NCBI GenBank assembly: GCA_913061265.1
Contig: CAJXVS010000009.1
Location: forward strand, 62,001-126,000
Source: an uncultured Halobacteriovorax sp.
Lineage (GTDB): Bacteria; Bdellovibrionota; Bacteriovoracia; Bacteriovoracales; Bacteriovoracaceae
Reading direction: 5' to 3'
DNA length: 64,000 bases
Made by a program: the position numbers and the translations under genes. Numbering within the stretch: the stretch's first letter is position 1; the number at the start of each line of letters is the position of its first letter. The notes below the pieces were generated by a model. That model had not been told where the DNA came from and made no database searches. It saw only the letters and a program-made list of their open reading frames with translations. This document shows, in pieces, positions 43,185-61,683 of the stretch.

Positions 43185-46100
43185 TTAGGCTAGAAACTTC
43201 TTCTGGGCCCTTCTTATTGCCCATCCTAGAACAAAGAGGGTTAAAAGCTCTAAAAGGCCTTCAGGCCAAGATGGACCATTAGATCCAGAGCCGTCATCAG
43301 CTGCTGCTGAACAGCCGCCTCCAGCACCGCCAGCGACTGGGTTAGTTGGAGCAGGAGCTGGTGCAAAAAGAGCAGCTGGAATAGGCATCGAAGGATCACC
43401 AAAGAGCATGGTTGATCTCGTTATATCTTTTGAATAATTATCTGTTCCAAGAGTTATCTTGGTCTCTTGAAGAATCTCTCCAAGAGTTACTCTATGATAA
43501 ACCTTATTGGTCTCTTCAATAACCTTTCCATAAAAAGCTTTAGCAAAATAAGTTTGCGCTGCCGGAGTGGTTTGAGTTGAAGAACCAATAAAAGAGATTG
43601 CGCCACCATTCTTATTGAGAATTAAGGCCTCACCCATACTTCTTGTAAGATTGGTTCTTTCAGGGTCATAAAACTGAGCATTATCACAATTAAGACTCAT
43701 GACAACGGGAAGCTTAGCATTAGTAAGAGAGTCCATATCATTATTAATCATAAAACTTAACGAGCCCCACTGGTTAGGTGCACCATGCCCCATATAAGTC
43801 ATGATAAAAGGAGTCGTGTTGGTAAACCTATCAATAACAGCAGTCTTAGTCGGTGCGTTTCCACCAAGGCTATGCCAATGAAGAGTATCATTAGAAAAAC
43901 GAGAACTAAGGCTAGTGAGTTCAGCAATTCTTTCATCAAACTTATCTTCATTAGGATCCGTTACATCTCCTGCTCCATTTTCTTCACCAGAGATAAAGCT
44001 CAACTGCATAAGTCCTTCTTCTGGTGCTGTCGATCCATTTTCATAGAGAAGCATTTTAGAAATATAAGATTCGATCTTAGCCGGATCATTTGTAGGGATT
44101 CTTCCCACAGCTAATTTAGGTAAATAAGAAGAGGCATCGCTGACAAAGTAATTATCAGTAGCATAATCAAAGAACCTAGCTCCCTCGAGAGTCATAGGGA
44201 CATCCCCAGTTTCAACTGTAGTAGAGGAAAGATTCTTCTTTGGATCAAAAGAGCCATCCCCTAAGAGAAGTAAGAACTTAGGATAAGGTGACGTCCAATT
44301 TGTTTGTGTATAGTTAACAAAGTCTTGAATTGCTTTAGCGCTAACTTGGCCATTAGAGAACTCAGCATATACTTGATCAAGAGTGATGACCTTTGTTGTA
44401 AGCCCTTGCCCTTCTCGCTGAGAGACAAGTTCTGTCGTCTTATCAGTTAGGCTCTTATGCCCGATGATTAAAAGATCTGCCCTATTAGCGCCTGCTTTCA
44501 AGGGAAGCTCAAAGCCTGAAGAGAGGCTAAGTCCTGTTGGTTTTAGATAGCTTCCTACTAAACTTGCATAATACTTAGTGCCTAAGCTTTCGCTATTATC
44601 ATTGGCCTCAAAGTCCATCTTAAAAGTGGCGTTTCCATCAGTGCTATAGACAGATCCATTTGAAACAAAGCCTGGTTTTGTTAAATCAGAGATATCCCAA
44701 AGTTCAATTGAGCTTCCACTAAAACCTTCAAGAGTAACCAGTGTATTTGGGTCATCATTAGTAAACTCTACTCTGTCGTTAGTGCTTCCTTTTGAACCAA
44801 AGTAAGTTAGGCTTAGTTTATCAATGGCGACAGTCTCAAGAACACTGACTGCGGCAGCATAAGTCCCTAGGGCCTTAATAACAATTGAGTTCGTTCCTGC
44901 AACAAAGAGGCTATGAGGAAGAGTGAAATCTAAGGTTTGAATTTCTTTAGAACTAAAAGTAAAAGTCTTATCAGCTGTTCCAGACCCATTGATAAAAACT
45001 CCTACATGATGATCATACTCAGTTTCATTCCATCCTAGGCTCTTACCTTTTAAAGTTAAACTTAAAGAAACCTCATCACTAAAGGCATTATTTAAATGGG
45101 GAAGCTCAACGCTCATAGTAAGAGTGTCATAACCGCCAGTCGCCCTAAGAACCTTCCAGATAAAATGATCTTGGTCATCACCAAGGTTTTCGTACATAAG
45201 AATGTCACTATTTTGATCAGCAACAACTGTATAACTTGAATAAGGATTCGCTCCCACTCTGCCTGTCGTTTGAGTTCCATCTATTGACGAGAACCTTGAA
45301 GGATTATCAGCGCTATTATAAATATTTTGAGTGCTAAGAACTCTTTGATTTTTAAGATCATGTTTTGATTCTTCAAAGTCGCCATAGAAATAGATCTTAT
45401 CACCACTATTAAAGACACCATCTCCATCAACAATATGAAGAGGAATCTCGCTATTGCCGTTATAAAGACGAAGATCCGCCGTATTTTGATTCTCAAAAGG
45501 CGCTTCAGTAGAGCTGCTCACCAGGTCATCATAAAGAACTTCAATCATTCCTTTAGAAGAGAAATCTATCCTAAGAGTATTGGCGATAATATTGGCGTTG
45601 TAATCACTTGCATCTGCAGGTGGATCAACTTCCCAACTATTTCCATCGATAGCGATGTCAATAATGGCTGAATCTAATCGGTTAAGATCTTTTGTAACAG
45701 GATTATAGCTTAGAGGATCCACGGTTAACTTAATGAATTTTTTCCCACTAACGCTTAAAAGATTTGTATCTACTGTGACAAAGCTAGAAGGTCTAAACTG
45801 ACTTACATTATAAAAGCTTGTATCCACGGCATAAACAGGCTCTAAAATATTTGACCCGTTAAGAACATAATCGGGAGCTGGTTGAATCGTTTTTGGCCCA
45901 ATAGCAGATTGAGCTTGGGTATTATTTTGTAAAGTAGCACTTGTGGCAAAAGGATAAACTTCGACTAAGAGATTTCTCTTGAGAAGTTCCGGTTTCCCTG
46001 CCACTTGAGTCTTAGCATAACTCGACATGCTTACTTCTTCATATGATCCATTCCATGCACTAGCACTAAAACTTGCTGCAGGAGGAGTTATCTTTATTCT

Positions 46101-49100
46101 TAAATGAGTAGAAGTTTGAGATAGAATTTGAACTCCATCGCCTAGGTCTCTAAAAGAAGGGTTCGCAATACTTCCTGGATCAGTTACATCTGCTTCACCA
46201 TCATCATCATTACTGCCACCATCGTTAACCCCTCCACCAACGGCAGGAGCTGCTCCGTATGTTGCCATAGGTGTTACTGTTCTAGGTCCATGAAGTTCGG
46301 TATTTCCAAATTTATCAATGTCTTGAATATAGTACTGATAGGTTTCCCCATTATCGACATCGTTATCCACAAAACGATACTTACCTTTATAGGAAACTGA
46401 ACTTAGATTATTTCTAATTAAAGTAGGATTGATCTGAAGGAAGTTCTCTCCATCCTCTCCTGCTCTAAAGACATTAAAACCTGAATGATCTTGTTCAAAG
46501 ATAGTCTCCCATTCAAGATCAACAGCATTATTGTAAGGAGTCGCTGTATAACTTAATAAGCTTACTGCGGAGACTGATCCATTAAAGTTAATATTACATG
46601 AGGCCGTACTAACCTTTGTACTTGTATCAAAGGTAGTTGTTTCATCATACCAATCTCCATACCATTCTGTGATATCCATGGTCTGACTTCCGCAACCTGT
46701 TGAAGCTGCTAGTTGATAAGTATCAGTGTTGGCCGGTGTATTTGCTTCCGTTCCAGCACTAGTTTCCCAGTTAATACCAATCTTTGTAGCCGCACTTGGA
46801 ATGCTTCCTGAAGTATTAATCTGCATCACTTTTACTGAAGCATAGGTTGTTGAAAGGCCTGCAAATTGACCACCATCCATATTAGATAAGACTGTAGTTC
46901 CCGCAATCCTTAGACCATTGGTGTCCATATTATCGATAACAAAACCGTCTAAGCTTACTGTTCCTGATGTAGCATTAAAACCAAAGCGCCCCGCCATAGA
47001 GGTCATCTTCGCTTTCTTCGATGTAAAGTTTGAATAGTAACTAGCCGCTTCAGTATTTGGCATGGCCTCAGCCACACCATCAAGAGTAAAGGTGCCTCCA
47101 GAGACAAGGAAAGTTTGAGCACTACCAACCTGAAGCTCTCCTCCACTTTCAATCTTCATAGCAGCAGAGCTTAAAGTTGCCCCGCCAGCTAATTTTAAAA
47201 TCTTTGTATCTTGAACTAAGAATTCAAAACTATTTGACGCTCCAAAGTTGAGACTATTTGTTATCTCTAAAGTTCCTGAACCAATATTAACAATCCCACC
47301 CGCTGTCTTATTAAAGGCGATAGATTCGATAGCAGAGGTAGACTCTATAGTTTGAGTCGTTGCAGTGGCGCCATCATCAGCAAAATTAAAAGTTTGTCCG
47401 TTTTGCGTAAAAGTACCAGTATTGGTAAAGCCACCAAATAAGTTTAAGGTAGCTCCGCCACTCATAGTAAGCGTTCCGTTACCAATAGTTAGAGATTTAC
47501 AATTAGCAGTAATCCCTGCAATCGAAGGATTATTAGCGGCGCTATTAATGATGCAATTTAAAGTTGAAGTAGGTACGCCACCATTCCAGTTTCCACCAGT
47601 GTTCCACGCTGTGCTTGAATCACCTGTCCAAACTGTTGTCGATCCAACAATTGCTCTCGCTGCACCTAAATCAACTGGTGGAGATGCCGCTCCATTAAAA
47701 GAATAAACTTCAGAGTTAACGACATCAGCATTTGAATCAATCTTAATTCCAATCGTTTCACCAGAGGTAGCTAATGAGGCCACATCTAACTCTACATAAA
47801 TACAAACAGTAGGAGGAGTTGTAGCGTGAGCTGGAATAGTTGCCCCAGTAATGCCAGTTATAGTTGCTTTAGCCGGAACTCCACTAAAAGTAGCTGAACC
47901 TAGAAGAGTTCCTCCAGCACTATTACAATCAGTTTCATAATAAGCTTTTACCTGACTAACATCAGCACCATCCCCAGTTCCTGTTAAAGTAAGAGCGAGC
48001 TCAGTAATATCTGTATCGTTAAAAGCTCCGGCCTGAGTTTGTTTAAAAGCATAACGGCCCATAATATAAGTTGAGCCTTGATCCATTCCGCCGGCTGAAG
48101 TGGCGCTTTGAACAATATCTATTGTATTCGTCTGAGTTCCCCAGCTAACGATGTACGTAGGATCATTATCAAAATCCGTTGGCGTATCACCGCCAAGATC
48201 TCCATTCCAATCTGAAATGGATAAAGTTCCAGCAGTTGTTACCGTTTGAATATTAGTGATTGTAGTAGCAGTTGATCCACCTGAATCAAAAGTCATATTA
48301 TTTAAAGCGTCACCTGGGATTTGTCTGTTCAGTCTTAACATTACAGTGCTGTTATTTACTGGGTAAGAAAAAGTACCGTTTTGCATATAGTTCGTTGCAT
48401 CGATAGTCGCTGCAGTATTAATAACCACACCTGTCGTATTTAAATTTGAAAAAGAATAATAACGGGCCTCAATAGTACCAGTCACGGCCATATCCCAATC
48501 TTCAGTTGTTCCTGCGCTTGTAATATTTGCTGATTGTGATGCACTTCCCACCACTTTAATTTTTCCACCGGCTCCAACTGTAATTGAAGAGTTATTGCCC
48601 ATAATTAAAATTGCGCCAGGCTCAACGACAAAGGTTCCGCCATTTATATTAAGGTCACCTGTGATCGTTAAAGTATTTCCCGTAGTAACAACAAACTCAC
48701 CCGTTGTATTTGTAAAGTCTCCAGAAATAGTCCAGTCAGTATTTAACCAAACACTTCCGCCAGTATTAGCAACTTCTACATTTCCAGGGAAAGTTACATC
48801 TGAAGTAATGGATTGATTACCAGTTCCTTTAAAAGCAATTGTACCGTTAACGGCATTATTAAAAGTATAAGGACTTCCTATTGTTAGCGAGCCATAGATA
48901 GACCAAGTTGTAGCAAAGCTACGCCAATCCATTCGTCCACCAGCAGGTAAGGTAGCATTTAAACAAGATCGTTCGGTTGTATTACTAAAGAAAGGGAATG
49001 AGTACCCTTGGCCAATTTGGCAATCGAGAGTTGAGTTAGGAAAACCATTTGCCAACCATTGATTATTTTGAGCATAATTCCCCCCCGTTCCAGGATTACC

Positions 49101-50735
49101 ATTTCCACCATGCCAAACACGAGAGCCTGCACCATTAACTTCTGCTAATCCCCCCTCTAAAGGTGGACCACCTGAAGTTGACCAATCATAATCTAGATCA
49201 TTGACTACATCATCAGTTGAAGCAATTTTAACAGAAAGAGTACTGCCATCTTGAGCAGAGGCTGAAGTTGCCAGTAAAACAAAGATACATTTTTCAGTAG
49301 AATCAATAACAGTAAGATCTCCTGATCCAAAAGTTAGGCTTGCTTCAGCTGGAGATCCGATAGGACTTAAGTTAGATCCTATCTGAGTATCTGTTCCAGC
49401 ATTATAAGTACAATTGGCATTAACATCTTTATAAACTTTCATTACACTTACATCAGCAGCATTATTAACCCCGCCAACAGTAAAAAGAATTGAAGTAATC
49501 TCAGTTGCGCTGACAGCAGTTGCTGTCATAGAAAAACCAAAAGTCATAAACTGAGTGTCAGCTGATCCTGTTCCTATTGTCGCTGGAGGTTCTCCACTTG
49601 CGGATCTATTTACGACTTGAAGCTTTGGAGTAGCTTCTGTTCCCCAAATGATTCTATTATTACCGTCAGTCTCATTAGCGGTATCGCCAAGACCACTCCA
49701 GTTAGTAAAATTAACGTCGGATACATTATACGCTCCAGCATTAACATTTCGTTGAGTGCCTGTTGCCCCTTCTTCGAAAAACCCAACATTATCGAGGGTA
49801 GAAGGTATGACGGCAGCTGCTCCAAAAGTTAAGGCATATCCATTATCATTTATAAAATGAAAGTCTCCATTACGAAGTTTTTGAACAGTCCCTGTAATAT
49901 TTGTTCCAGCTGCATTTGTATGATTGATACTAAAGTATTCAACATTCAAATCCCCTGCAACGTTAAAAGTAAATCTTCCAGAATCATTTGAATCAAGTTT
50001 TGCGATATTCCCAGGCGCTCCCGCTAATTGTAAAACTCCACCTGCAGAGACAGTCAATGTTCTAGCATTTCCTATTTCTAATAATCCACCTGCTTCAACT
50101 TTTAAAACACCAGCGATGGTAAGGTTTCTCAGAACTCTCAAAGTCGCGCCATTTCTAACGACGACGGTTGCTGAAGTTGGTATTGTTACATCTGCTGCCG
50201 TTGTGTCTACAGTAACTGTGTCTGAAATATTAATAATCCCTGCACCGGCATCAATCTGAAATCTATTGACTACTGAAAAACTACCCGTCAGATTAGTCGT
50301 TGTTCCATTACTCAGGCGAAGTCTTCTAATGGGATCGACATTTTGAAACTCTTGTTCAGCTGCTCCACCCATATGAACTTCAAAATTATTGGTACCAATA
50401 ACAAGGGAATTTTTATTTGGGTTTTTAAAATAGTCACCAGTAATTGTAAGAGTTCTATTTCGATCTGCTGTTAATTGACCTGATTGAATATCAACACAAC
50501 CAAGAGTGTAAGTGCTGTTAGGATAAGCAGGAAAAAACCAATCAGCTGTGATGACAGCATTCTCACCAGCAGAGTTTGGTCTATTGGCGGCATTCCAGTT
50601 ATTATTTGTATTCCAATTTGTACTACCAGCATCCGCTTCCCATTGCCGAGTATTTGCTCCACAGGCAGCATGACTTAATTCGATCGTAAAGATCGACAGG
50701 CAAAGCATGAATAGGAATAAACTTTTACTTAGCAA
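43185..50735 (-). CDS. Giant C25 (gingipain-like) peptidase with Cys-containing C-terminal tail
   Basis: 2516 residues. Signal peptide (ELSHA). The N-terminal ~1450 residues are beta-strand-rich modules, with three copies of an NW/GGNW...P.S...C motif, alternating with two copies of a module containing NRSASG and TDTQIG-like strands. An FN3-like domain follows (LEWETIFEQDHSGFNVFRAG), then a long pre-peptidase region. The C25 domain ends the protein: GHGAPNQWG (His 2317) and SLNCDNAQF (Cys 2350), 33 residues apart as in gingipain. The last 52 residues are Gly-run, Cys-Ser, linker, hydrophobic helix, RR..KK. Start TTG 50735 with CGGAGA 9 nt upstream; no ATG is available upstream in frame. A stop lies 18 nt further up. 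Confidence 0.9.
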   Translation of the reverse strand: MLSKSLFLFMLCLSIFTIELSHAACGANTRQWEADAGSTNWNTNNNWNAANRPNSAGENAVITADWFFPAYPNSTYTLGCVDIQSGQLTADRNRTLTITGDYFKNPNKNSLVIGTNNFEVHMGGAAEQEFQNVDPIRRLRLSNGTTTNLTGSFSVVNRFQIDAGAGIINISDTVTVDTTAADVTIPTSATVVVRNGATLRVLRNLTIAGVLKVEAGGLLEIGNARTLTVSAGGVLQLAGAPGNIAKLDSNDSGRFTFNVAGDLNVEYFSINHTNAAGTNITGTVQKLRNGDFHFINDNGYALTFGAAAVIPSTLDNVGFFEEGATGTQRNVNAGAYNVSDVNFTNWSGLGDTANETDGNNRIIWGTEATPKLQVVNRSASGEPPATIGTGSADTQFMTFGFSMTATAVSATEITSILFTVGGVNNAADVSVMKVYKDVNANCTYNAGTDTQIGSNLSPIGSPAEASLTFGSGDLTVIDSTEKCIFVLLATSASAQDGSTLSVKIASTDDVVNDLDYDWSTSGGPPLEGGLAEVNGAGSRVWHGGNGNPGTGGNYAQNNQWLANGFPNSTLDCQIGQGYSFPFFSNTTERSCLNATLPAGGRMDWRSFATTWSIYGSLTIGSPYTFNNAVNGTIAFKGTGNQSITSDVTFPGNVEVANTGGSVWLNTDWTISGDFTNTTGEFVVTTGNTLTITGDLNINGGTFVVEPGAILIMGNNSSITVGAGGKIKVVGSASQSANITSAGTTEDWDMAVTGTIEARYYSFSNLNTTGVVINTAATIDATNYMQNGTFSYPVNNSTVMLRLNRQIPGDALNNMTFDSGGSTATTITNIQTVTTAGTLSISDWNGDLGGDTPTDFDNDPTYIVSWGTQTNTIDIVQSATSAGGMDQGSTYIMGRYAFKQTQAGAFNDTDITELALTLTGTGDGADVSQVKAYYETDCNSAGGTLLGSATFSGVPAKATITGITGATIPAHATTPPTVCIYVELDVASLATSGETIGIKIDSNADVVNSEVYSFNGAASPPVDLGAARAIVGSTTVWTGDSSTAWNTGGNWNGGVPTSTLNCIINSAANNPSIAGITANCKSLTIGNGTLTMSGGATLNLFGGFTNTGTFTQNGQTFNFADDGATATTQTIESTSAIESIAFNKTAGGIVNIGSGTLEITNSLNFGASNSFEFLVQDTKILKLAGGATLSSAAMKIESGGELQVGSAQTFLVSGGTFTLDGVAEAMPNTEAASYYSNFTSKKAKMTSMAGRFGFNATSGTVSLDGFVIDNMDTNGLRIAGTTVLSNMDGGQFAGLSTTYASVKVMQINTSGSIPSAATKIGINWETSAGTEANTPANTDTYQLAASTGCGSQTMDITEWYGDWYDETTTFDTSTKVSTASCNINFNGSVSAVSLLSYTATPYNNAVDLEWETIFEQDHSGFNVFRAGEDGENFLQINPTLIRNNLSSVSYKGKYRFVDNDVDNGETYQYYIQDIDKFGNTELHGPRTVTPMATYGAAPAVGGGVNDGGSNDDDGEADVTDPGSIANPSFRDLGDGVQILSQTSTHLRIKITPPAASFSASAWNGSYEEVSMSSYAKTQVAGKPELLKRNLLVEVYPFATSATLQNNTQAQSAIGPKTIQPAPDYVLNGSNILEPVYAVDTSFYNVSQFRPSSFVTVDTNLLSVSGKKFIKLTVDPLSYNPVTKDLNRLDSAIIDIAIDGNSWEVDPPADASDYNANIIANTLRIDFSSKGMIEVLYDDLVSSSTEAPFENQNTADLRLYNGNSEIPLHIVDGDGVFNSGDKIYFYGDFEESKHDLKNQRVLSTQNIYNSADNPSRFSSIDGTQTTGRVGANPYSSYTVVADQNSDILMYENLGDDQDHFIWKVLRATGGYDTLTMSVELPHLNNAFSDEVSLSLTLKGKSLGWNETEYDHHVGVFINGSGTADKTFTFSSKEIQTLDFTLPHSLFVAGTNSIVIKALGTYAAAVSVLETVAIDKLSLTYFGSKGSTNDRVEFTNDDPNTLVTLEGFSGSSIELWDISDLTKPGFVSNGSVYSTDGNATFKMDFEANDNSESLGTKYYASLVGSYLKPTGLSLSSGFELPLKAGANRADLLIIGHKSLTDKTTELVSQREGQGLTTKVITLDQVYAEFSNGQVSAKAIQDFVNYTQTNWTSPYPKFLLLLGDGSFDPKKNLSSTTVETGDVPMTLEGARFFDYATDNYFVSDASSYLPKLAVGRIPTNDPAKIESYISKMLLYENGSTAPEEGLMQLSFISGEENGAGDVTDPNEDKFDERIAELTSLSSRFSNDTLHWHSLGGNAPTKTAVIDRFTNTTPFIMTYMGHGAPNQWGSLSFMINNDMDSLTNAKLPVVMSLNCDNAQFYDPERTNLTRSMGEALILNKNGGAISFIGSSTQTTPAAQTYFAKAFYGKVIEETNKVYHRVTLGEILQETKITLGTDNYSKDITRSTMLFGDPSMPIPAALFAPAPAPTNPVAGGAGGGCSAAADDGSGSNGPSWPEGLLELLTLFVLGWAIRRAQKKFLA

Positions 50736-50760: not shown

Positions 50761-50788
50761 TTATCGGTACTTAGCTTCCTCTATTTTA
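50761..50788 (-). promoter_or_regulatory. FliA (sigma-28)-like promoter of the 2516-residue peptidase
   Basis: Minus strand: TAAA-N16-ACCGATAA, 7 of 8 to the sigma-28 -10 GCCGATAA and a full -35 core. The -10 ends 25 nt before the TTG start, leaving a short leader with AACGGAGA as SD. The rest of the 253-bp gap shows only a weak hairpin after the upstream giant gene and no other promoter I trust. Confidence 0.65.
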
Positions 50789-50988: not shown

Positions 50989-53900
50989 TTATCTTGAAAA
51001 TAAGAGTTTTTGACCTTTTCTTACCAAGTATCCAAAAAGAAAAAGAGCAAATATTTCAAGAATTCCTTCAGGCCAAGACTTAGAATTTGATCCATCAGAG
51101 GCCGCTGCTGAACAACCGCCTCCTCCACCGCCGGCTACAGGATTTACATCCACAGGGGCTACAGGAGTCTTAAAGATCGACTTAGGAAGCATGAGTGAAG
51201 GATCTCCTAATAAAAGGATACTATCGATTTGATTGTTATTTAGCCCTGAAGAGACCACTCTCTGGCGAGTGTTCTTAATCACATCTCCAAGCCTTACAGA
51301 CTGATCACCTGAGTCAGCAGTCCTCTCTAATTCTCGGTAAAAGTACTGGGCAAAAACATTCTGATCAGTAGGAGTCAGCATTGTATTGGCAGAGATAACA
51401 CTGATAGCACCGGCTGCATCCTTAAGCAGAAGCTCTTCTCCGAGGCCCTTGTCGGTTGGGTCTGATGAAGCATAGTAATTTGATAAACAGTTAAGGGTTA
51501 ACATTAAAGGAAGCTGGTCATTAGTCATTGAGCTTACATCAGTAGTTTCAAGATAGTTTGTAGAGGTAGAGCCGATAGCGTACTCACTACCATGTCCCAT
51601 AAAATTGACAATAAAGTTATCACTCATTTCACTTTGAAATGTTCCTGCTGCTGAGCTTGAAAGGTTAACAAACCTCTTAGAAAAGCTACTCGCTTCAAGA
51701 GAGTAATTCTCAGAGATCGAATTAAACTCTGCGTAACTATCATCAACGTAGTTAAAAGAGATAGTATTTGAAATACTATCAATCTGATTTCTTTCATAAT
51801 CAATTATCTTTTGAGTGATCGCATTTAGCTCTGCCTCATTGTTCACGGGTAATCGACCAATAGCGAAATCAAAACGGATAGAGCCATCCTTAAGCATCCA
51901 TTGATCAGAAGCATAATCATGATATTTTGAAGAATCCATATAAACAGGACTTCTCTCACTAGTCTGATTTCCTTCGTAATCTCTCGCATCTACTGAGGCA
52001 TCAAGAGCAAATAAGATGTATTTCAACCTATGACTTGGGTAATTATTAACGGCTTTAAAGAAGGCCTTAAAGGCTTCAGGGGACTTTCTTCCAAAGCTGT
52101 AGTGATCATAGATTCTTTTTTCATCAACAAGACTAACCTCTAGTCCCATGTCTCTTTTATGGTTAGCTAAGATCTCAGCTTCATCTTTAAGCTGTGAATT
52201 TGTGATAATGATTAAGTCACTTTCGGCCATTGAATCAAGTAAACTCCCTTCAATAGTTACCCAGCTCAACTGAACAGGACTAAAGAGTTCATTGAGATAG
52301 ACAATATCAAAGCTACTCTCTGAAGAGACAACACCTTGAGTTGTAAAACTAATTTGATTAGCGCTCATTTCAAAGTTCTTATAAAGATAAGAATCCCCCT
52401 GATCTTCATCTTGAAGTAAGAAGAACTCACCTTTTGTATTATCAAAAGGAAGTTCATACCTTGTAGCAAACTCTAAATTCTTTATTCGTTTATTAGTAGT
52501 TGTAGGCTCTGAAGCGTATGAGATATCAAAGCCATTAAAATCTAAGATATAATACTCTGATGGAAGACCAGTAAAAGGCTTGATTGAAAAACAGAGTTCT
52601 TCAGTAGCTGCCGGTGAGAAACTAAAGATATAGTCAGCACTCGTCTCTTGAAGAAGAGGTCCATTTAAAAGGAGGTCTACCTTATTTCCTGTATCAGAGG
52701 AAAAGTAAGCTTCAACCTTAAAGTCTCCAATAATATTAAAGTTACTTCTAGGCGCCGCACTGAGATCAATTTTTAGATCATTCCCTGTAATCCCCTCTAG
52801 ATCGACATTATGACAATAAGTAGAAGCAGCTGGATAAGAAGAGTCCCCAGTCACCAAGTACTTAAACTGCCAGAAATAATGATCCACCCCTGATCCAAGA
52901 GACCTAGAAGTTACAAAGAGGTTTGGGTTATCTTGTTCATAGTTTATCTTTTTATTAAAAGAAACTGTGCCTAGGCTTCCCACGTAGTCGTCATAGACAG
53001 GAATATAGCGAAGCCCTTCAGAGTTTGAATTAATACTTAAAAGAACACTATCAGACATGCTGTATTGAGATTTTTCAAAAGGCGCATAAAAGACAAGGAC
53101 ATCTCCTTGCCCAAAGTACTCATCGTTTTCCTTAATAATATGAAGAGGAAGAGAATTTCCCTTATAGGTTAGTTCAAGCTCTGAATGAGTAATCCCATTA
53201 AAGGGAGAATCTACTCCATTTTGAAAGAGATCATCAAAGCTAACTTTGTAATGACCTTTTTTATTATAGAAAATCCTTGTTCCATTTCTCTCTAAAGAAT
53301 TAAAGAGAACATTAGAGCTTCCCGTAGCAACTTCAGGAGATGCTTCACTATAAGAAATATTAATATAGGTCTCAGTTAGAACTTTAATCGATGAATCGGA
53401 CCCTCTAAAAAGAATCGGATTAACGATAACCTTTATATAATTCTTGCCTTGAATACTTACTGAACTGGTATCCACGGCAACATGGTCAGCTCTTGGATAA
53501 TAGAGGGCCGAAGCATAAGTAGCTGCGTCTGCTGAATAACTTGCGGTTAGATTACCACCAACAAGTGAGTAGCTAGGAGCTGGCACTGGTAAAACATTCT
53601 CATCTCTACTATCTTCTTGTTGAACAACGGCCGTAATATTAGAGGCTAGACTCTCAATAGGAATAAGGATTTCCGTAAACGGAAGAGCTGGCTTATCACT
53701 TACTGATACTTTTACATGAGAAGGGATAGAGAGTTCTTTATACGAAGCATTCCAAGCTGAGTCAGTACTAGTATAGGCCTCAGGCTTAATATGAAGCCTA
53801 AGGTTTCCATCAGGCAGAAGATAGACGTCAGCGCCAGGAGCGACGTTGATAGCATAGTCATTCCTCGCGTTCACAAGATTATCTTCAAAATCGATATTAC

Positions 53901-56900
53901 CTTCGTACTGATTGAGATCATCATTAAAAACAGGAACAGGTCCAAGTAAAGGATCAAGCGAAGCTGAATAAGGCCCGTGCTGAACAAGCTCATCTGAAGT
54001 TGAGATATCTTCAAGCAGATAATGATAGGTCTTCCCTGCTTCGACAGCTGTATCTATAAAACGGTATTCACCAGCAAAGCCAATAGAGAAGATAGAGTTT
54101 AAAACTAATTCGCTATTTATCTTTATATAGCCAGATCCACTGCTATCACTTCTATAAACATTAAAGCCTTTATGTAAGATCTCAGCTGCCGTCTTCCACT
54201 CTAAGACAATGGCATCAGAAAAAGGAGTGATCTGCACTTCGGCCATGGTAATCGGAGAAGCAGAAGGGAGCATGATGATTTCACAAGTAGGTGCATTATG
54301 TTGGCTTTTAATATTACCAAGCTGAGTATAGAAATTTCCATACCATTCATTAAAGGTCATTGTATGCGAGCCTGCTCCACAATTTGTAGGTGCTCTGTAG
54401 GCAAAGTAAGTTCCTGTCGCTGTGTAGTCATTGCCGGGAGCTGCCGGTTCATCAAGAGCAAAATAGGTTGATGTTGCGGGAAAACTTCCTGTCGAGTTAA
54501 AGAGAAATCCTTGTCCGTTAGCTCCGATTGTAGTGTTTGTTAAATGAACTCCATTAAAATTTGATAAAGTAGTTGTACCAAGAACCTGTATTCCATCTTT
54601 ATCGATTCGGTCAATATTGACTCCCGTTAAATCGACGGTTCCAGAGTTTGCTTGAAAAGTAAAAGAGCCCGTTCCAGAAACTGTTCCGATATGAGCTTGA
54701 GCTGTCGTATAGCCTGGGTTAGTTGAGAGACCTGTATCAATAGTTCCGGAAGTTTTTAATGTTCCACCAGAGACCGTTATCGTATTTCCATTTCCAACAT
54801 TTAAGACGCCACCTTGCTTAACTTCAAAGGTTACATTGGAAGGAATATCTAGATCGTCACTAATATCAAAATCAATTCCCGAGTTAAGATTTAATGAGAA
54901 ACTACTTCCCCCTTCAATTTCAATATCATTGGTGGCTATATCAGTAGAGAAGCTAAGAGCCCCTCCTGAAGTTTTAGCCAGCTTTAACAAAGGTATTGCA
55001 GTAGTAGAAGAGAGCACCTGGCTAGTCGTACCGGTATCTCTTAAGGCAAGAGCTCCATCCGTACCCGAAATGGAAGCGGCACCATTTAAAATTACTTGGC
55101 CATAGCCTGCCAATTCAACTGGAGTAACAGAACCATCAATCGTTATTGGCGCTGAAAGGATGATATTTTTACAAGCGGCATTACCAATAGTTCCATCAAT
55201 AACAGGATCATTAGCAAGATTAGTAATTGTACAATCAGAGGTAGAACTTGGGACTCCGTTATCCCAGTTACCAGCTGTGAACCAATCAGTATTAACGGCC
55301 CCAGTCCAATTCGTGGCCGGTGGAGAAGTTGTAACGGTTACTATCTGCCCAGTAGTATATTCACTTGAAGAGTTATAAGCACAAACTCTAAAAGAATATT
55401 GAGTCGATGCTGTCAAAGCAGAGACTTGTTTTGTAATAACATTTCCGGCATTGATTTGAGTTCCACTAGTACAATTTGTAGGTGCTGTTGCCCCCGTTTG
55501 ATAGGCAACTCTAAAGCCAGTAGTGGTACCTCCACCTGAGGTCCAGTCAAGTTTAATGGTAGTAGAATTAAGAGCAACTCCAAGAAGGCCAGAGAGATCA
55601 TTTGCCGCCGCTTCAGCTGGGCTTAAATGAATAACTGCTGAGGCAGATCGTCCTGCTCCTGTATGATTAAAACTCGCCGACTCAGTTTGAGTGGCCGCTG
55701 AAAGAAGCTGACCTGTACCTAAGGTAGATGAGTTTCCGTTTTGGGTATTTCCTAAGGTCCAAGCATTATTAATAGTATAAGTTCCATCGTTGGCCGTCGT
55801 GGCCCCAGCAACTGAGGCACCACCAAGCACGCCACTAATATTAACTCCAATAGGATCAACCCCATCGGAGAAAGTTCCATTCGCATCACTAAATATTGGG
55901 CTTGCTTGATCTACATCTGTAAAAACATTATGAGAGTAATATCGTCTGTTCTGAACACCCTGATCCCAAGTCACGACGAAAGTAGTGCTTGCAGCTGCAA
56001 GGATTTCTGTTTCTTTTAAATACCAAATTTCTACTTTATTAAAATCCGTCGTGCTAAAAGACTTAAGTGAAGACTTAGCATGGGTTAAACTTTGACCACC
56101 ATAAGTGACAGAGATCAAGTCAGCATCAACAGTATCTTCACTTGAGGCAACAAAGATCAACATTCTATTTGATCCCGCATCCATCGTTCTTGTTAGACCT
56201 GTTTGCCAAGTACCAGCGACTGCAACAGTTGGATTAACTCCAGCAGCTCCAGTAGTGCCTGAGTCTGTAAGACCAGTACTATAAACAAAGTTAGCATTGG
56301 CTGAACAGACTCTAAATGAATAGAGAGTACCAGAACTAAGACCATTAACTTGATAAGCGGTGGAGGTACCTACATTAACGGCAGTTCCAGATGAACAATT
56401 AGCCGGAGCAGTTCCTCCTGCTTGATAAGTGACAACATATGAATCAGTTGATCCCCCACCATTAGTCCAGTTAAGAGAAATTTGAGAGTCAGAAACGACC
56501 GTAAGTCCAAGCCCAATGATTTCATTAGGAGCAAGAACGGGAGCATCATCGGTTTGAATTTGAATAACAATACCTGTGCTTAAAGTTCCTTGGGCATTAT
56601 AAGGACACACTCTAATGCCATATTCAGTATCACTCGTAAGACCCGTTATAGAATATACTTCTACGTTAGAGACATCAGTCCCAGCACTACAATCAGCTGG
56701 TGCCATCCCAGCCGCTTGATAAGCTACTCTAAATCCAGTAGTTGTTCCAAGTCCTGAAGTCCAGTCAATATTAATAGTTACATCTGATCTAGAAACCATC
56801 GCCAACCCAACAGGGTCAGTGGCGTTAGCCAGTTTAAAGTGACCACCAACAGTGGATCTATTATCCCCACCGGAGAAAGTCGTGTCGACATTGTCAGTAC

Positions 56901-59433
56901 CTGCAGCACTACTCTCTTTATATGTTGTTACAAAGCCTAGAGCTGTATTTGAGGTGATAATTCCTGTTTCCCAGCCTGCTGTATTGATAGTCGCGACAGA
57001 GTTATTATTTCTTGTCGTAGCGCCAACGATGGAGAGACCACCGACTTCAGTATTTAAAGATAAATTATCAATCGTAGCGTTGACGCCATCATTATTGGTG
57101 TCTGAAAAAAGAGTTGATTGATCTACGTTTGCAAGGACCACACTTGAGTACACCGTATAAGTAGGACCGCCACCAGAGAAAGTGATATCAGCTGATAGAG
57201 GAGCAACAGCAGCACTTATCTCAGATTCACTAAGAGTCCAAATTTCAGTTCTCGCATTATTAAAGTTTCTGTTCACTACTTTAGTCATGGCCTGCCCGCC
57301 AAAATCAACAGAGGCAATGTCAGATCCATTTTCAAAACCAAAGACATAGACAAGAGTTCTATTTTGACCAACTCCAAAGTCAGATCGACTCGCTCCTGTT
57401 TGCCATCCACTCAGAACATGAACATTACTTGAGAGAGAAGCGATTCCTGGAGTTGTAAAAGTTCCTGTTAAACCAGATGAGTAAATGGGTGTTCCGTTAT
57501 AAGCACAGATTCGATAAGAGTATTGAGTCAAAGCACTTAAACTAGTTAACTCATAAGTTGTTCCACCACCCATATCAACTTGAGTATCAGAGGTGCAATC
57601 AACTGGAGCAGTGGCCCCCGTAGTAAAGGCAAGCCTATGTCCAATTGTTCCTCCGCCTCCAGAGACGAGAGAAAAACTAACGGAATCAGGACCATTGATA
57701 GTTAAGTCAACACCAAGAGGATCATTCGGAGGATCAGGAGCGATGGCATCAGTGGTAGCACTTACGAAGGCTCCGTTTGTATAATTAGCTCCTGAATTTG
57801 CACAGACTCTAAAAGAGTATTCTGTTCCAGCGCTAAGACCTGTTACTTGATAAGTTCCAACAGCTCCAGCATTTACAATAGTTCCAAGTTCACAACTTCC
57901 TGGCGCCGTAGCCCCCGCTTGATAAGTCACATAGTAAGTTGGAACAGAAGCTTTCTTCGTCCAAGTTAAATTAACTGAAGTATCTGATGAAGACACTGCC
58001 GTCAGCCCAGTAACAACAGGAAGTACATTTGATCTAAAATGAGCCACAGCTAAAGGCATCCTAAAACTATTCGAATGATTTATAGAAACTGTCTTTGAAT
58101 CCTGATCAGCTCCTTCAATCTCAACGGCCACGGCCTGTGAAGTTGAATTTCCTGATTCATTTACAACGATAGAGAGGTTTGATCCCCAAGTACCAGTGTT
58201 ACCATTTTGAGAAGAGAGAATGGTAAGTCCATCTTGAGCCACAGGAAGTGTTGTCTCTAAGTCAGGAAGTCCCGATTGACCATCATCAGCAGTTGCTGTT
58301 GAAAAGAGAGTGTTGACCTGATCTATTCCTGTATAAACAGCTGAGGCCACATCCGTATGATCGGGAGCCCCGCCAGAAGTGTTCACTGTAATGGTTGTAT
58401 TTGCGGCAGCCGTAATTCCTGCATCTAATAAATAATAAATTCCCGTTTCTGCTTCAAAAGAAGTTCCTGTATCTACCCTTACCGCTTCAGTCAATGTCTG
58501 ACCGCCGTAAGTGACAGAGGTGATATTATTAGTCGTAAGATTATCTTCAAAACCTACCGCTACAATAAGAAGCCTATCGGTTCCAGAGGGTGCAGTAACT
58601 GTTTTAGTCGTTCCAGAAGTCCAATCATCTGCAGGAGTAATGGCCTCGCGCCATTTATTTAAGAGGTAGTTCTTAACCTGAGTTCTTTCAGTATCAGTAA
58701 GTCTTCTGTCATAAATGATAACTTCTGCAGCGTTGATCTGTTGATACTGAGTTCCATAAGCACCAATTTGAAAGTCTTGAGTTCCCCAGTCAATATAATC
58801 AGCTACAGCATCAGAACCAACAAGGGCCCCATCTCGGTAGATGGCCTGATAGTTAGGCGCTCCGTCATCGTTGATAAAGTTCCATGTATGCAAAAAGGAT
58901 GAACTTCCTCCCCAAGGTGCTTGAATACGAGAGGTCCCACAACAAACGCCTACATCAAAATAGACATTGTTATTACTCCAAGGAAAGTGAGTACCAAAAC
59001 GTCGTCCACCTGTAACAGAACCAAAGGCCCAGCCATTAGAAATAGTTCTTGTTCTCGCGACAAAGAAAACTTCCGTCTCAGAGATCCTATCGCCATTTTG
59101 AAAGACGGCACCGCCACCACTTGATCCATCAATATCCATTCGATCAGAAGTAAACTCAATAGCATCAAGCCCACCGTCGTCAACCCATAGAGGGGTTCCT
59201 GAAGCTTGAATAGCATCGTTTCCATTTCCAGATTTATCGGCCCAACAACGAACACTGTCTCCGTGAGCAGAAACTTCATTTCCACCCGTACAACCCGTAT
59301 CAGTGAAGACTGTTTCTGTATCACTAGCATCAAGCCAAAGACGAAGACCAGAATCAATACCAGCAGGCCCTGCTGCAAAAGCAAGGTTTGCAAATAATAC
59401 GCTGATGAATAGAAAAGTCTTTTTACCAATCAA
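50989..59433 (-). CDS. Giant C25 (gingipain-like) peptidase with LamG and FN3 domains
   Basis: 2814 residues, paralogue of the downstream giant gene. Signal peptide (ANLAFA). Order: LamG-like lectin fold (about 25-260), then five FN3 domains interleaved with three copies of a ~200-residue module marked by [SV]xxYGGQxLT, an NW module matching that of the paralogue, an FN3-like domain (LEWKTAAEILHKGFNVYRSD) and the C25 domain. Catalytic residues: GHGSEY (His 2614) and LTLNCLSNYY (Cys 2649). The last 51 residues repeat the Gly-run, Cys-Ser, hydrophobic helix, basic tail. The LamG/FN3 part suggests carbohydrate or protein binding; the target is unknown. TTG start with CGGAGA 8 nt upstream. The ~1000-residue C-terminal half is shared with the paralogue. 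Confidence 0.9.
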   Translation of the reverse strand: MIGKKTFLFISVLFANLAFAAGPAGIDSGLRLWLDASDTETVFTDTGCTGGNEVSAHGDSVRCWADKSGNGNDAIQASGTPLWVDDGGLDAIEFTSDRMDIDGSSGGGAVFQNGDRISETEVFFVARTRTISNGWAFGSVTGGRRFGTHFPWSNNNVYFDVGVCCGTSRIQAPWGGSSSFLHTWNFINDDGAPNYQAIYRDGALVGSDAVADYIDWGTQDFQIGAYGTQYQQINAAEVIIYDRRLTDTERTQVKNYLLNKWREAITPADDWTSGTTKTVTAPSGTDRLLIVAVGFEDNLTTNNITSVTYGGQTLTEAVRVDTGTSFEAETGIYYLLDAGITAAANTTITVNTSGGAPDHTDVASAVYTGIDQVNTLFSTATADDGQSGLPDLETTLPVAQDGLTILSSQNGNTGTWGSNLSIVVNESGNSTSQAVAVEIEGADQDSKTVSINHSNSFRMPLAVAHFRSNVLPVVTGLTAVSSSDTSVNLTWTKKASVPTYYVTYQAGATAPGSCELGTIVNAGAVGTYQVTGLSAGTEYSFRVCANSGANYTNGAFVSATTDAIAPDPPNDPLGVDLTINGPDSVSFSLVSGGGGTIGHRLAFTTGATAPVDCTSDTQVDMGGGTTYELTSLSALTQYSYRICAYNGTPIYSSGLTGTFTTPGIASLSSNVHVLSGWQTGASRSDFGVGQNRTLVYVFGFENGSDIASVDFGGQAMTKVVNRNFNNARTEIWTLSESEISAAVAPLSADITFSGGGPTYTVYSSVVLANVDQSTLFSDTNNDGVNATIDNLSLNTEVGGLSIVGATTRNNNSVATINTAGWETGIITSNTALGFVTTYKESSAAGTDNVDTTFSGGDNRSTVGGHFKLANATDPVGLAMVSRSDVTINIDWTSGLGTTTGFRVAYQAAGMAPADCSAGTDVSNVEVYSITGLTSDTEYGIRVCPYNAQGTLSTGIVIQIQTDDAPVLAPNEIIGLGLTVVSDSQISLNWTNGGGSTDSYVVTYQAGGTAPANCSSGTAVNVGTSTAYQVNGLSSGTLYSFRVCSANANFVYSTGLTDSGTTGAAGVNPTVAVAGTWQTGLTRTMDAGSNRMLIFVASSEDTVDADLISVTYGGQSLTHAKSSLKSFSTTDFNKVEIWYLKETEILAAASTTFVVTWDQGVQNRRYYSHNVFTDVDQASPIFSDANGTFSDGVDPIGVNISGVLGGASVAGATTANDGTYTINNAWTLGNTQNGNSSTLGTGQLLSAATQTESASFNHTGAGRSASAVIHLSPAEAAANDLSGLLGVALNSTTIKLDWTSGGGTTTGFRVAYQTGATAPTNCTSGTQINAGNVITKQVSALTASTQYSFRVCAYNSSSEYTTGQIVTVTTSPPATNWTGAVNTDWFTAGNWDNGVPSSTSDCTITNLANDPVIDGTIGNAACKNIILSAPITIDGSVTPVELAGYGQVILNGAASISGTDGALALRDTGTTSQVLSSTTAIPLLKLAKTSGGALSFSTDIATNDIEIEGGSSFSLNLNSGIDFDISDDLDIPSNVTFEVKQGGVLNVGNGNTITVSGGTLKTSGTIDTGLSTNPGYTTAQAHIGTVSGTGSFTFQANSGTVDLTGVNIDRIDKDGIQVLGTTTLSNFNGVHLTNTTIGANGQGFLFNSTGSFPATSTYFALDEPAAPGNDYTATGTYFAYRAPTNCGAGSHTMTFNEWYGNFYTQLGNIKSQHNAPTCEIIMLPSASPITMAEVQITPFSDAIVLEWKTAAEILHKGFNVYRSDSSGSGYIKINSELVLNSIFSIGFAGEYRFIDTAVEAGKTYHYLLEDISTSDELVQHGPYSASLDPLLGPVPVFNDDLNQYEGNIDFEDNLVNARNDYAINVAPGADVYLLPDGNLRLHIKPEAYTSTDSAWNASYKELSIPSHVKVSVSDKPALPFTEILIPIESLASNITAVVQQEDSRDENVLPVPAPSYSLVGGNLTASYSADAATYASALYYPRADHVAVDTSSVSIQGKNYIKVIVNPILFRGSDSSIKVLTETYINISYSEASPEVATGSSNVLFNSLERNGTRIFYNKKGHYKVSFDDLFQNGVDSPFNGITHSELELTYKGNSLPLHIIKENDEYFGQGDVLVFYAPFEKSQYSMSDSVLLSINSNSEGLRYIPVYDDYVGSLGTVSFNKKINYEQDNPNLFVTSRSLGSGVDHYFWQFKYLVTGDSSYPAASTYCHNVDLEGITGNDLKIDLSAAPRSNFNIIGDFKVEAYFSSDTGNKVDLLLNGPLLQETSADYIFSFSPAATEELCFSIKPFTGLPSEYYILDFNGFDISYASEPTTTNKRIKNLEFATRYELPFDNTKGEFFLLQDEDQGDSYLYKNFEMSANQISFTTQGVVSSESSFDIVYLNELFSPVQLSWVTIEGSLLDSMAESDLIIITNSQLKDEAEILANHKRDMGLEVSLVDEKRIYDHYSFGRKSPEAFKAFFKAVNNYPSHRLKYILFALDASVDARDYEGNQTSERSPVYMDSSKYHDYASDQWMLKDGSIRFDFAIGRLPVNNEAELNAITQKIIDYERNQIDSISNTISFNYVDDSYAEFNSISENYSLEASSFSKRFVNLSSSAAGTFQSEMSDNFIVNFMGHGSEYAIGSTSTNYLETTDVSSMTNDQLPLMLTLNCLSNYYASSDPTDKGLGEELLLKDAAGAISVISANTMLTPTDQNVFAQYFYRELERTADSGDQSVRLGDVIKNTRQRVVSSGLNNNQIDSILLLGDPSLMLPKSIFKTPVAPVDVNPVAGGGGGGCSAAASDGSNSKSWPEGILEIFALFLFGYLVRKGQKLLFSR

Positions 59434-59458
59434 GCTCTGAATCTCCGGTTGCTCTTTC

Positions 59459-59485
59459 TTATCGGTCTTCCTTCTATGTCTTTTA
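59459..59485 (-). promoter_or_regulatory. FliA (sigma-28)-like promoter of the 2814-residue peptidase
   Basis: Minus strand: TAAA-N15-ACCGATAA, the exact spacing of the sigma-28 consensus. The -10 ends 25 nt before the TTG start, as for the paralogue. The flanks also match the paralogue (GGxCTTAAAAT upstream, CAAC-CGGAGA downstream). Of the 365 bp between this gene and the phosphatase gene, the rest holds the phosphatase terminator, the 3'-end duplication and pyrimidine-rich runs; no credible gene is seen. Confidence 0.7.
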
Positions 59486-59630: not shown

Positions 59631-59658
59631 GCAAAAAAAAGAGGGCATAGGCCCTCTT
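59631..59658 (-). terminator. Intrinsic terminator of the minus-strand phosphatase gene
   Basis: Stem AAGAGGGC / GCCCTCTT with loop ATAG, followed on the minus strand by eight T. It ends the transcript of the secreted phosphatase gene to its right. The duplicated 3'-end element lies between that gene's stop and this terminator. Confidence 0.85.
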
Positions 59659-59689
59659 AAGTAACTGGAATTATATAAAGTTGATTTTT

Positions 59690-59722
59690 CTAGTTAATTT
59701 TAAAAACAACTTCCATCGCCTT
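59690..59722 (-). repeat. Displaced second copy of the phosphatase gene 3' end
   Basis: 33 bp matching 59799-59831 at 31 of 33 positions. On the minus strand it encodes KAMEVVFKIN-stop, while the gene itself ends KAMEVVFKVN-stop. The two copies start 109 bp apart. This is a gene-end remnant or target duplication, not a coding gene. Confidence 0.8.
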
Positions 59723-59798
59723 TTGGAGGCGGCATCGGCAGGACAGCCGATGAAGCCGAACAACGCAGAGAGGTCCACGATGGACCGAACAGTGAAGC
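59723..59798. mobile_element. GC-rich hairpin-rich insert between the two 3'-end copies
   Basis: 76 bp, clearly more GC-rich than its neighbours. Three hairpins: CGCC/GGCG (59717-59731, reaching into the left copy), CATCGGC-AGGACA-GCCGATG (59733-59752) and GGTCCA-CGA-TGGACC (59772-59786). GCCGAACA and ACCGAACA occur as near-repeats. It is flanked by the 33-bp direct copies, like a small insertion with target duplication, but no transposase or known element is recognised. Confidence 0.45.
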
Positions 59799-60650
59799 CT
59801 AGTTCACTTTAAAAACAACTTCCATCGCCTTGTGATCAGCACCCTCAAGTTCACCCCAGACAGCCTCACTCTTAAGTTCAAGCCCACGGTAAAAAACATA
59901 ATCAAGAGGAAAACCAAACTTCATCATACGTTGATCATTTTTAAACTTAACTTCTTTTAGATTATTTCTAACGGCCATCATGCGAACAAAGTTAAATTTC
60001 CCAGGAGACCAAGTATTAAAATCCCCGGCGAAAACAACTGGTCCATCATAAGTTTTCATAACTTCTTCAACATCTTTGATCTGTCTTGCGAGACCTTCAG
60101 TTGAGACAAAATTAATGGCGTGAATATTAATCGTGAGAAGATCTTTATCACTTCCCGCTATTGGGTAAGTTGTAAAAAGAACCATCTTTGGGGTATTGAT
60201 CACTGGCTCGCGAACAACTGATTGTTGATAAAAAAGACTGCTCGCCTTTATCTTTGAAGCTGAAGTTACACCTGTTCTGATCTGCCCTTTTCTATAGATA
60301 AAAGAAGTGGCTAAATGGTATTCATGATCAGAATCTTCTTCAAACGAACTCATCATTTTTTCATCTAAATACATCTCTTGAAGAAGAAGAATGTCTCTTT
60401 CTTCTGCTAAAAATTTAAAGTCTTTTTTCCAAGATTCGTTTTGGCCCTTGTACATATTCCAAACAAGAATCTTTATATTATCAGGGTCAAGCTTAGATCT
60501 ATTAGGCTCACCAATAGTTGTCATAATATCTTTATGTTTTGGTACAAAGATATTGAGGCTATCCCAAATGTCTCCACCAAAGTTTTGCGCCATAGAAGCT
60601 TGACTAAAAAGTGTAGCTACCAAAATAGCTAAAATATTTTTCTTGAACAT
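59799..60650 (-). CDS. Secreted endonuclease/exonuclease/phosphatase family protein
   Basis: 283 residues. Signal peptide (SQASMA). EEP-fold motifs: ILVWNMYKG (Asn), ILLLQEMYLD (catalytic Glu), NIHAINF, VVFAGDFNTWS (Asp/Asn), PLDYVFY and ADHKAMEV (Asp-His). All the usual catalytic residues are visible, so it should be an active phosphodiesterase: a nuclease, or a lipid/sphingomyelinase-type enzyme. It is divergent from a 281-residue paralogue. SD AAGGAAAC. The end of the gene is duplicated 109 bp downstream. Confidence 0.9.
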   Translation of the reverse strand: MFKKNILAILVATLFSQASMAQNFGGDIWDSLNIFVPKHKDIMTTIGEPNRSKLDPDNIKILVWNMYKGQNESWKKDFKFLAEERDILLLQEMYLDEKMMSSFEEDSDHEYHLATSFIYRKGQIRTGVTSASKIKASSLFYQQSVVREPVINTPKMVLFTTYPIAGSDKDLLTINIHAINFVSTEGLARQIKDVEEVMKTYDGPVVFAGDFNTWSPGKFNFVRMMAVRNNLKEVKFKNDQRMMKFGFPLDYVFYRGLELKSEAVWGELEGADHKAMEVVFKVN

Positions 60651-60837: not shown

Positions 60838-61683
60838 ATGACTCGATTTACTCGTTTCTCTCTAATTACATGCCTCATCTTCTTGAGCGTAAATGCTAAT
60901 GCTTGGCGCTGGCAGGTTCCAGAAAACGACGAAGTTATGATTAGCATCAATAACGACCGAAAAGAGTTCGTCACTTCAAATACCTTGAATCCAAACGCCA
61001 TCGATATCTTTGTTTGGAATATGTACAAAGGAGATATGCCTGATTGGAAACGGGACTATGAAAACCTAACACCAAAGTACGATGTTCTAATTCTTCAAGA
61101 ACTTTGGCTAGATCATAAAATGCTTGAGACCTTCTATGAAGACAAGCTCTTTAGTTATCATATGGCGACTTCCTTTATAGACACTAAAAAGAGTGACACC
61201 CCTACGGGAGTTGGAACCGCCGCCAAGATCGAACCCCTAAGAACCTTTTGGCAACGCTCTCATTATAGAGAACCCTTTATCAAAACCCCTAAGATGGTCC
61301 TCTTTACTGAGTACGCCTTAGAAGGAACAAGTAAGACTCTTCTTACAGGAAATATTCACGCTATTAATTTTGTAAGCTCAAAGAAGCTTCGCCATCAATT
61401 AAAGAACGTAGCGAAGGTCTTCGCCGCTCATGATGGTCCAGCCGTAATGGCAGGAGACTTCAATACTTGGTCTAAGAAAAAAATGAAGTACCTTCATGAG
61501 TTTGCAAAGGATGCTGGCATGACAGAAGTGAAGTTTGATAATGGTCATGAAAGAATGAAGACCTTTGGAAAGTATCTTGATTATATCTTTGTTAAAGGTG
61601 CCCGTGTTGATGACTCTCATGTCTTTGGAAATATTGAAGGGTCGGATCATAAGGCGATGTCTGTTAAGATTTCGGTTGATTAG
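60838..61683 (+). CDS. Secreted endonuclease/exonuclease/phosphatase family protein, paralogue
   Basis: 281 residues. Signal peptide (SVNANA). Motifs: IFVWNMYKGD, LILQELWLD, GNIHAINFVS, GDFNTWS, LDYIFV and SDHKAM, giving a complete EEP catalytic set. Similar to the divergent gene along its length, so the pair arose by inverted duplication. SD AAGGAAGG, 3 nt from the ATG. An intrinsic terminator follows directly. Substrate unknown. Confidence 0.9.
   Translation: MTRFTRFSLITCLIFLSVNANAWRWQVPENDEVMISINNDRKEFVTSNTLNPNAIDIFVWNMYKGDMPDWKRDYENLTPKYDVLILQELWLDHKMLETFYEDKLFSYHMATSFIDTKKSDTPTGVGTAAKIEPLRTFWQRSHYREPFIKTPKMVLFTEYALEGTSKTLLTGNIHAINFVSSKKLRHQLKNVAKVFAAHDGPAVMAGDFNTWSKKKMKYLHEFAKDAGMTEVKFDNGHERMKTFGKYLDYIFVKGARVDDSHVFGNIEGSDHKAMSVKISVD

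Follow-up and report, generated by a model that had tools for sequence, protein, structure and literature searches.

Predicted FliA (sigma-28) promoters precede two adjoining giant C25 peptidase genes in an uncultured Halobacteriovorax

Giant C25 peptidase genes P1 and P2

Two adjoining giant genes, P1 and P2, lie on the minus strand of the window, i.e., the whole stretch of 64,000 nucleotides that was analysed, and both encode peptidases of family C25. Their main features are as follows.

50989..59433, minus strand: P1, a 2814-residue secreted C25 peptidase with a signal-like N-terminus, fn3 domains, and a catalytic domain at the C-terminus
51187..52212, minus strand: Peptidase_C25 domain of P1 (residues 2408–2749), with His2614 in a GHG motif and Cys2649 in an NC motif
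50992..51141, minus strand: C-terminal tail of P1, GGGGGGCSAAASDG followed by a hydrophobic stretch and a basic end, common to the P2 family
43185..50735, minus strand: P2, a 2516-residue C25 peptidase with a C25 propeptide-like domain, conserved within the family at 39–73% identity to five orthologs

The assignment to family C25 is well supported by profile searches. The Peptidase_C25 profile of Pfam matches P1 with 181.4 bits (4e-53) and P2 with 236.2 bits (9e-70), against a cut-off of 23, and the GHG and NC motifs that carry the predicted catalytic His and Cys are invariant among P1, P2, and their relatives and align to PorU. The two proteins share 28% identity over their C-terminal halves. 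Among solved proteins, PorU is closest to the catalytic domain of P1. The family profile of P2 matches PorU, gingipain R, and Lys-gingipain and, in its propeptide-like region, also a Lys-gingipain chain. The first-pass annotation had described P1 as gingipain-like, which holds at the level of family C25 and for the C-terminal domain only; the closest relative is PorU, and the remaining ~2400 residues consist of fn3 and other modules. Among NCBIfam models, the type IX sortase PorU is the nearest, but the scores of P1 (148.6 bits) and P2 (193.7 bits) are far below its 420-bit cut-off. The AlphaFold model of the P1 catalytic domain, built on an alignment of only four sequences, reached a pLDDT of 37 and was set aside.

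P1 and P2 differ from the gingipains and PorU in their size (2516–2814 residues), in their long, repeat-rich N-terminal parts, and in their C-termini, where a hydrophobic tail with a Cys takes the place of a demonstrated type IX signal. No full-length ortholog of P1 was found among 128 other genomes of the family, and its N-terminal two-fifths yielded only short domain matches in these genomes, with no full-length counterpart. The ends of P1 (50992–51141) and P2 carry a matching Gly-rich Cys motif, hydrophobic stretch, and basic tail. This common tail is possibly a so far unrecognised Cys-type sorting or anchoring signal of giant surface proteins in the Bacteriovoracaceae. MYXO-CTERM tails have a tripartite layout (PMC11980579), and the P1 and P2 tails resemble them only in the order of Cys, hydrophobic helix, and basic end; no NCBIfam CTERM model was among the matches at E ≤ 0.1, and the proteins were not assigned to that class of sorted surface proteins.

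The promoter site and its family in the genome

The spacer upstream of P1 contains a sigma-28-type site and a terminator, and a second site of the same type precedes P2.

59459..59485, minus strand: predicted sigma-28 (FliA) promoter of P1 (motif match, genome counts, weight score, conservation), with the −35 element TAAA at 59482–59485, a 15-nt spacer, and the −10 element ACCGATAA at 59459–59466
59443..59446, minus strand: Shine-Dalgarno sequence GGAG, 9 nt before the TTG of P1, read from the sequence
59639..59658, minus strand: intrinsic terminator after the upstream endonuclease/exonuclease/phosphatase gene, separating P1 from upstream transcription
50761..50788, minus strand: predicted sigma-28 promoter of P2, TAAA-N16-ACCGATAA (motif match, genome counts, weight score)

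Read on the minus strand, 59485–59459 is TAAAAGACATAGAAGGAAGACCGATAA, i.e., TAAA-N15-ACCGATAA, and its −10 element ends 25 nt before the TTG start (59433) of the 2814-residue gene, exactly as the first-pass annotation had described. The TTG start is credible because GGAG lies 9 nt before it and the N-terminus, MIGKKTFLFISVLFANLAFA, resembles a signal peptide. The site combines the TAAA −35 element with a −10 element of the GCCGATAA type at the 15–16 nt spacing of sigma-28 promoters, and transcription would be expected to start near 59450–59453. A single mismatch to GCCGATAA had been correctly noted, yet A is the commonest base at that position in this genome: the 20 other sites carry A in 11 cases, G in 6, and C in 3, under a search pattern that allowed A, C, or G. 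The position-weight score of the site is 20.5 bits, whereas the 99.9% null lies at 15.4 bits per 280 nt. This comparison is partly circular, since that very pattern had been used to choose the training sites; the motif search is partly circular as well.

There is more to the locus than first reported, as the neighbouring giant gene P2 carries a like promoter that had been overlooked. The P2 site also lies 25 nt before a TTG start (50735). The TTG starts of both genes could mean modest translation.

The motif recurs throughout the genome (3.97 Mb, 12 contigs; forward and reverse strands). A scan for CCGATAA with TAAA 15–16 nt upstream, which had been suggested as a check on the promoter, returned 25 matches to TAAAN{15,16}VCCGATAA compared to 2 for the reversed pattern, and the T variant of the motif gave 9 matches against 1 for its control. 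Of these 25 sites, 22 are on the right strand and precede a start codon by 0–66 nt, whereas only ~2.3% of strand positions would lie ≤70 nt upstream of an ORF start by chance, as computed in the window. The sigma-28 consensus is also favoured at positions left free in the search, with C before TAAA in 11 of 20 sites, G after TAAA in 10 of 20, and G after the −10 element in 14 of 20. The genes behind these sites include a late flagellar gene, that of flagellin (Flagellin_N, Flagellin_C), with the motif TAAAGTTTTGTTTAGATCTCCCGATAA 56 nt before its ATG, together with an M23-LysM hydrolase, a HAMP-Cache-cyclase sensor protein, several lipoprotein-like and secreted proteins, and both giant genes. 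FliA itself is encoded in the genome (TIGR02479, 265.8 bits; cut-off, 189.6). When 59 genomes of the family were pooled, forward and reverse matches to the motif again exceeded the control; the excess was clear in most genomes and barely visible in a few.

At several predicted FliA promoters (L007, L012, L005, and L004, as well as L064/L097 at the P2 ortholog), the start codon lies 0–13 nt after the −10 element, so that such mRNAs would be leaderless or nearly so. N-terminal hydrophobic segments occur in 22 of 29 genes with a FliA site and in 16 of 29 other window genes, an enrichment that is not significant (p = 0.17). At L019 (G000:C8:1-140), translation of the contig end gives SLIHISEPTRLGMIS, a sequence typical of adapter read-through in short-read assemblies, and this end is likely an assembly artefact.

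Conservation of the promoter block

The promoter region is conserved in a same-genus genome (Halobacteriovorax sp. MAG, PBIO01000011.1). In that genome, the P2 ortholog (73% identity) is preceded by TAAA-N15-TCCGATAA; the P1 gene is missing there, and the endonuclease/exonuclease/phosphatase gene directly adjoins the P2 ortholog. When the spacer between the endonuclease gene and the first giant gene was aligned between the two genomes, two conserved islands emerged: the terminator at 59639–59658, with up to 80% identity, and the promoter block at about 59500–59450, with 70–83% identity. Between them, identity was about 37–60% in most windows of the alignment. According to this block alignment, the promoter before P1 corresponds by position to the promoter before the P2 ortholog in the relative, so that the conservation upstream of P1 is found at an ortholog of P2. 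The promoter copy of P2 in our window is similar to the conserved block but less alike than that of P1.

Beyond the genus, weight-matrix scoring found no convincing site upstream of P2 orthologs of other genera, and the two remaining C25 genes in the present genome also lack such a promoter site. The absence of the site at the other-genera orthologs suggests that the wiring is not ancient. FliA wiring of the giant C25 locus may perhaps be restricted to this genus, for which three genomes, one of them incomplete, could be compared. We give an even chance to a scenario in which the FliA regulon recently captured the locus in this genus: P2 was at first driven by an ancestral FliA promoter beside the endonuclease gene, P1 later originated or inserted behind that promoter, and P2 kept or regained a similar one, leaving a lineage-specific tandem of free-swimming-stage surface proteases formed by promoter inheritance.

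Transcription and possible role of P1 and P2

The proposal that a sigma-28 promoter drives the giant protease is strongly supported by the sequence, through a motif family that includes flagellin, the presence of FliA, and the block conserved in the same-genus genome. Two explanations compete with it at the level of the promoter. P1 could be transcribed mainly by housekeeping sigma-70 or by read-through, with the CCGATAA site incidental or auxiliary, as P1 shares its strand with the upstream gene and TTAACT-N16-TATAAT matches at 59670–59697. However, this only sigma-70-like site is located upstream of the strong terminator at 59639–59658, whose position is kept in the same-genus genome and which would cut off both sources; neither the stretch from the terminator to P1 nor the region before P2 yielded a sigma-70-like site, and it is on the sigma-28 site that the conserved block falls. 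The terminator and the lack of such a site downstream of it leave no strong alternative, and this explanation is improbable. A chance match in an AT-rich spacer is more improbable still. Although a search that tolerates one mismatch would be expected to hit about once per 64-kb window, the exact motif is ~12 times commoner than its control, the site precedes both adjoining giant genes at equal distance from the start, and it is conserved in a relative.

A further alternative accepts FliA dependence and concerns the function of the proteases: the life style would be non-predatory, and they would support motility or the upkeep of the surface instead of an attack on prey. The tie of this organism to Halobacteriovorax is a taxonomic placement only, which leaves room for such a role; on the other hand, its family relatives are predators, and in B. 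bacteriovorus FliA is a mark of attack-phase genes, those of proteases among them (PMC3627812). We consider a non-predatory role rather unlikely.

The site is thus very probably a sigma-28 promoter. P1 and P2 are likely both switched on along with the swimming machinery, and the analogy with Bdellovibrio would place their synthesis in the free-swimming stage. RNA polymerase with FliA would start ~6–9 nt downstream of the −10 element, and a short leader of about 20 nt would retain the GGAG ribosome-binding site on a transcript reading through the secreted 2814-residue peptidase. P2 would be transcribed from its own copy of the promoter, making both giant proteases putative members of the FliA regulon alongside flagellin. 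On the Bdellovibrio model, both would be produced by free-swimming cells and may act at the cell surface during prey contact.

Attack-phase control of P1 and P2 is suggested by published precedent in B. bacteriovorus. In strain HD100, where RNA 5′ ends were mapped, 92 of 140 attack-phase promoters carried TTAAG-N16-CCGATA, those of protease genes included (Karunker et al. 2013, PMC3627812). In the proposal of that study, FliA governs the attack phase globally, acting on flagella, surface proteins, and proteases; its authors noted that a knockout had yet to be made (PMC3627812). In a 2025 reporter study, promoters with the FliA motif were robustly to moderately active in attack phase (PMC12622784). 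The promoter type is alike, with TTAAA-N16-CCGATA at P1, and so is the breadth beyond flagella, which in HD100 covers surface proteins, proteases, and chemotaxis (PMC3627812). The present case differs in its family, the Bacteriovoracaceae, in being known from sequence rather than from an expression map, and in its targets, giant C25 peptidases of which P1 is without a full-length ortholog in the genomes searched. Compared to late flagellar promoters of E. coli (TAAA-N15-GCCGATAA), the −35 and −10 elements and their spacing are alike; in contrast, A or G precedes CCGATAA here, the spacer is 15 or 16 nt, and the downstream genes are mostly non-flagellar.

FliA control of proteases has already been published for Bdellovibrio, a precedent that the first-pass annotation had passed over, and the locus provides a new example of this general wiring, not a new principle. 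If the assignment is correct, two giant surface peptidases of a Halobacteriovorax-like predator are also under the flagellar sigma factor, and the global attack-phase role of FliA, as drawn for Bdellovibrio, extends to a marine family. P1 and P2 would then be concrete candidates for prey-contact proteases, in a large protease locus that joined the flagellar regulon within one genus.

The surroundings of the locus show several other features. No Rfam matches were found in the window. At 59690–59834, the 3′ end of the endonuclease/exonuclease/phosphatase gene recurs as a 36-nt direct repeat (92% identical; copies 109 nt apart) that encloses ~73 nt with short inverted repeats, and the arrangement resembles a very small insertion that duplicated the end of the gene. 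It is present as a single copy in the genome, as is a 141-nt stretch downstream of the endonuclease gene. Two divergent adjoining genes at 59799–60650 (minus strand) and 60838–61683 (plus strand) both belong to the endonuclease/exonuclease/phosphatase family. At the other end of the window, a third giant ORF (3–10784, plus strand) encodes at least 3509 residues with about 15 cadherin-like/Big_9 repeats and runs off the window edge.
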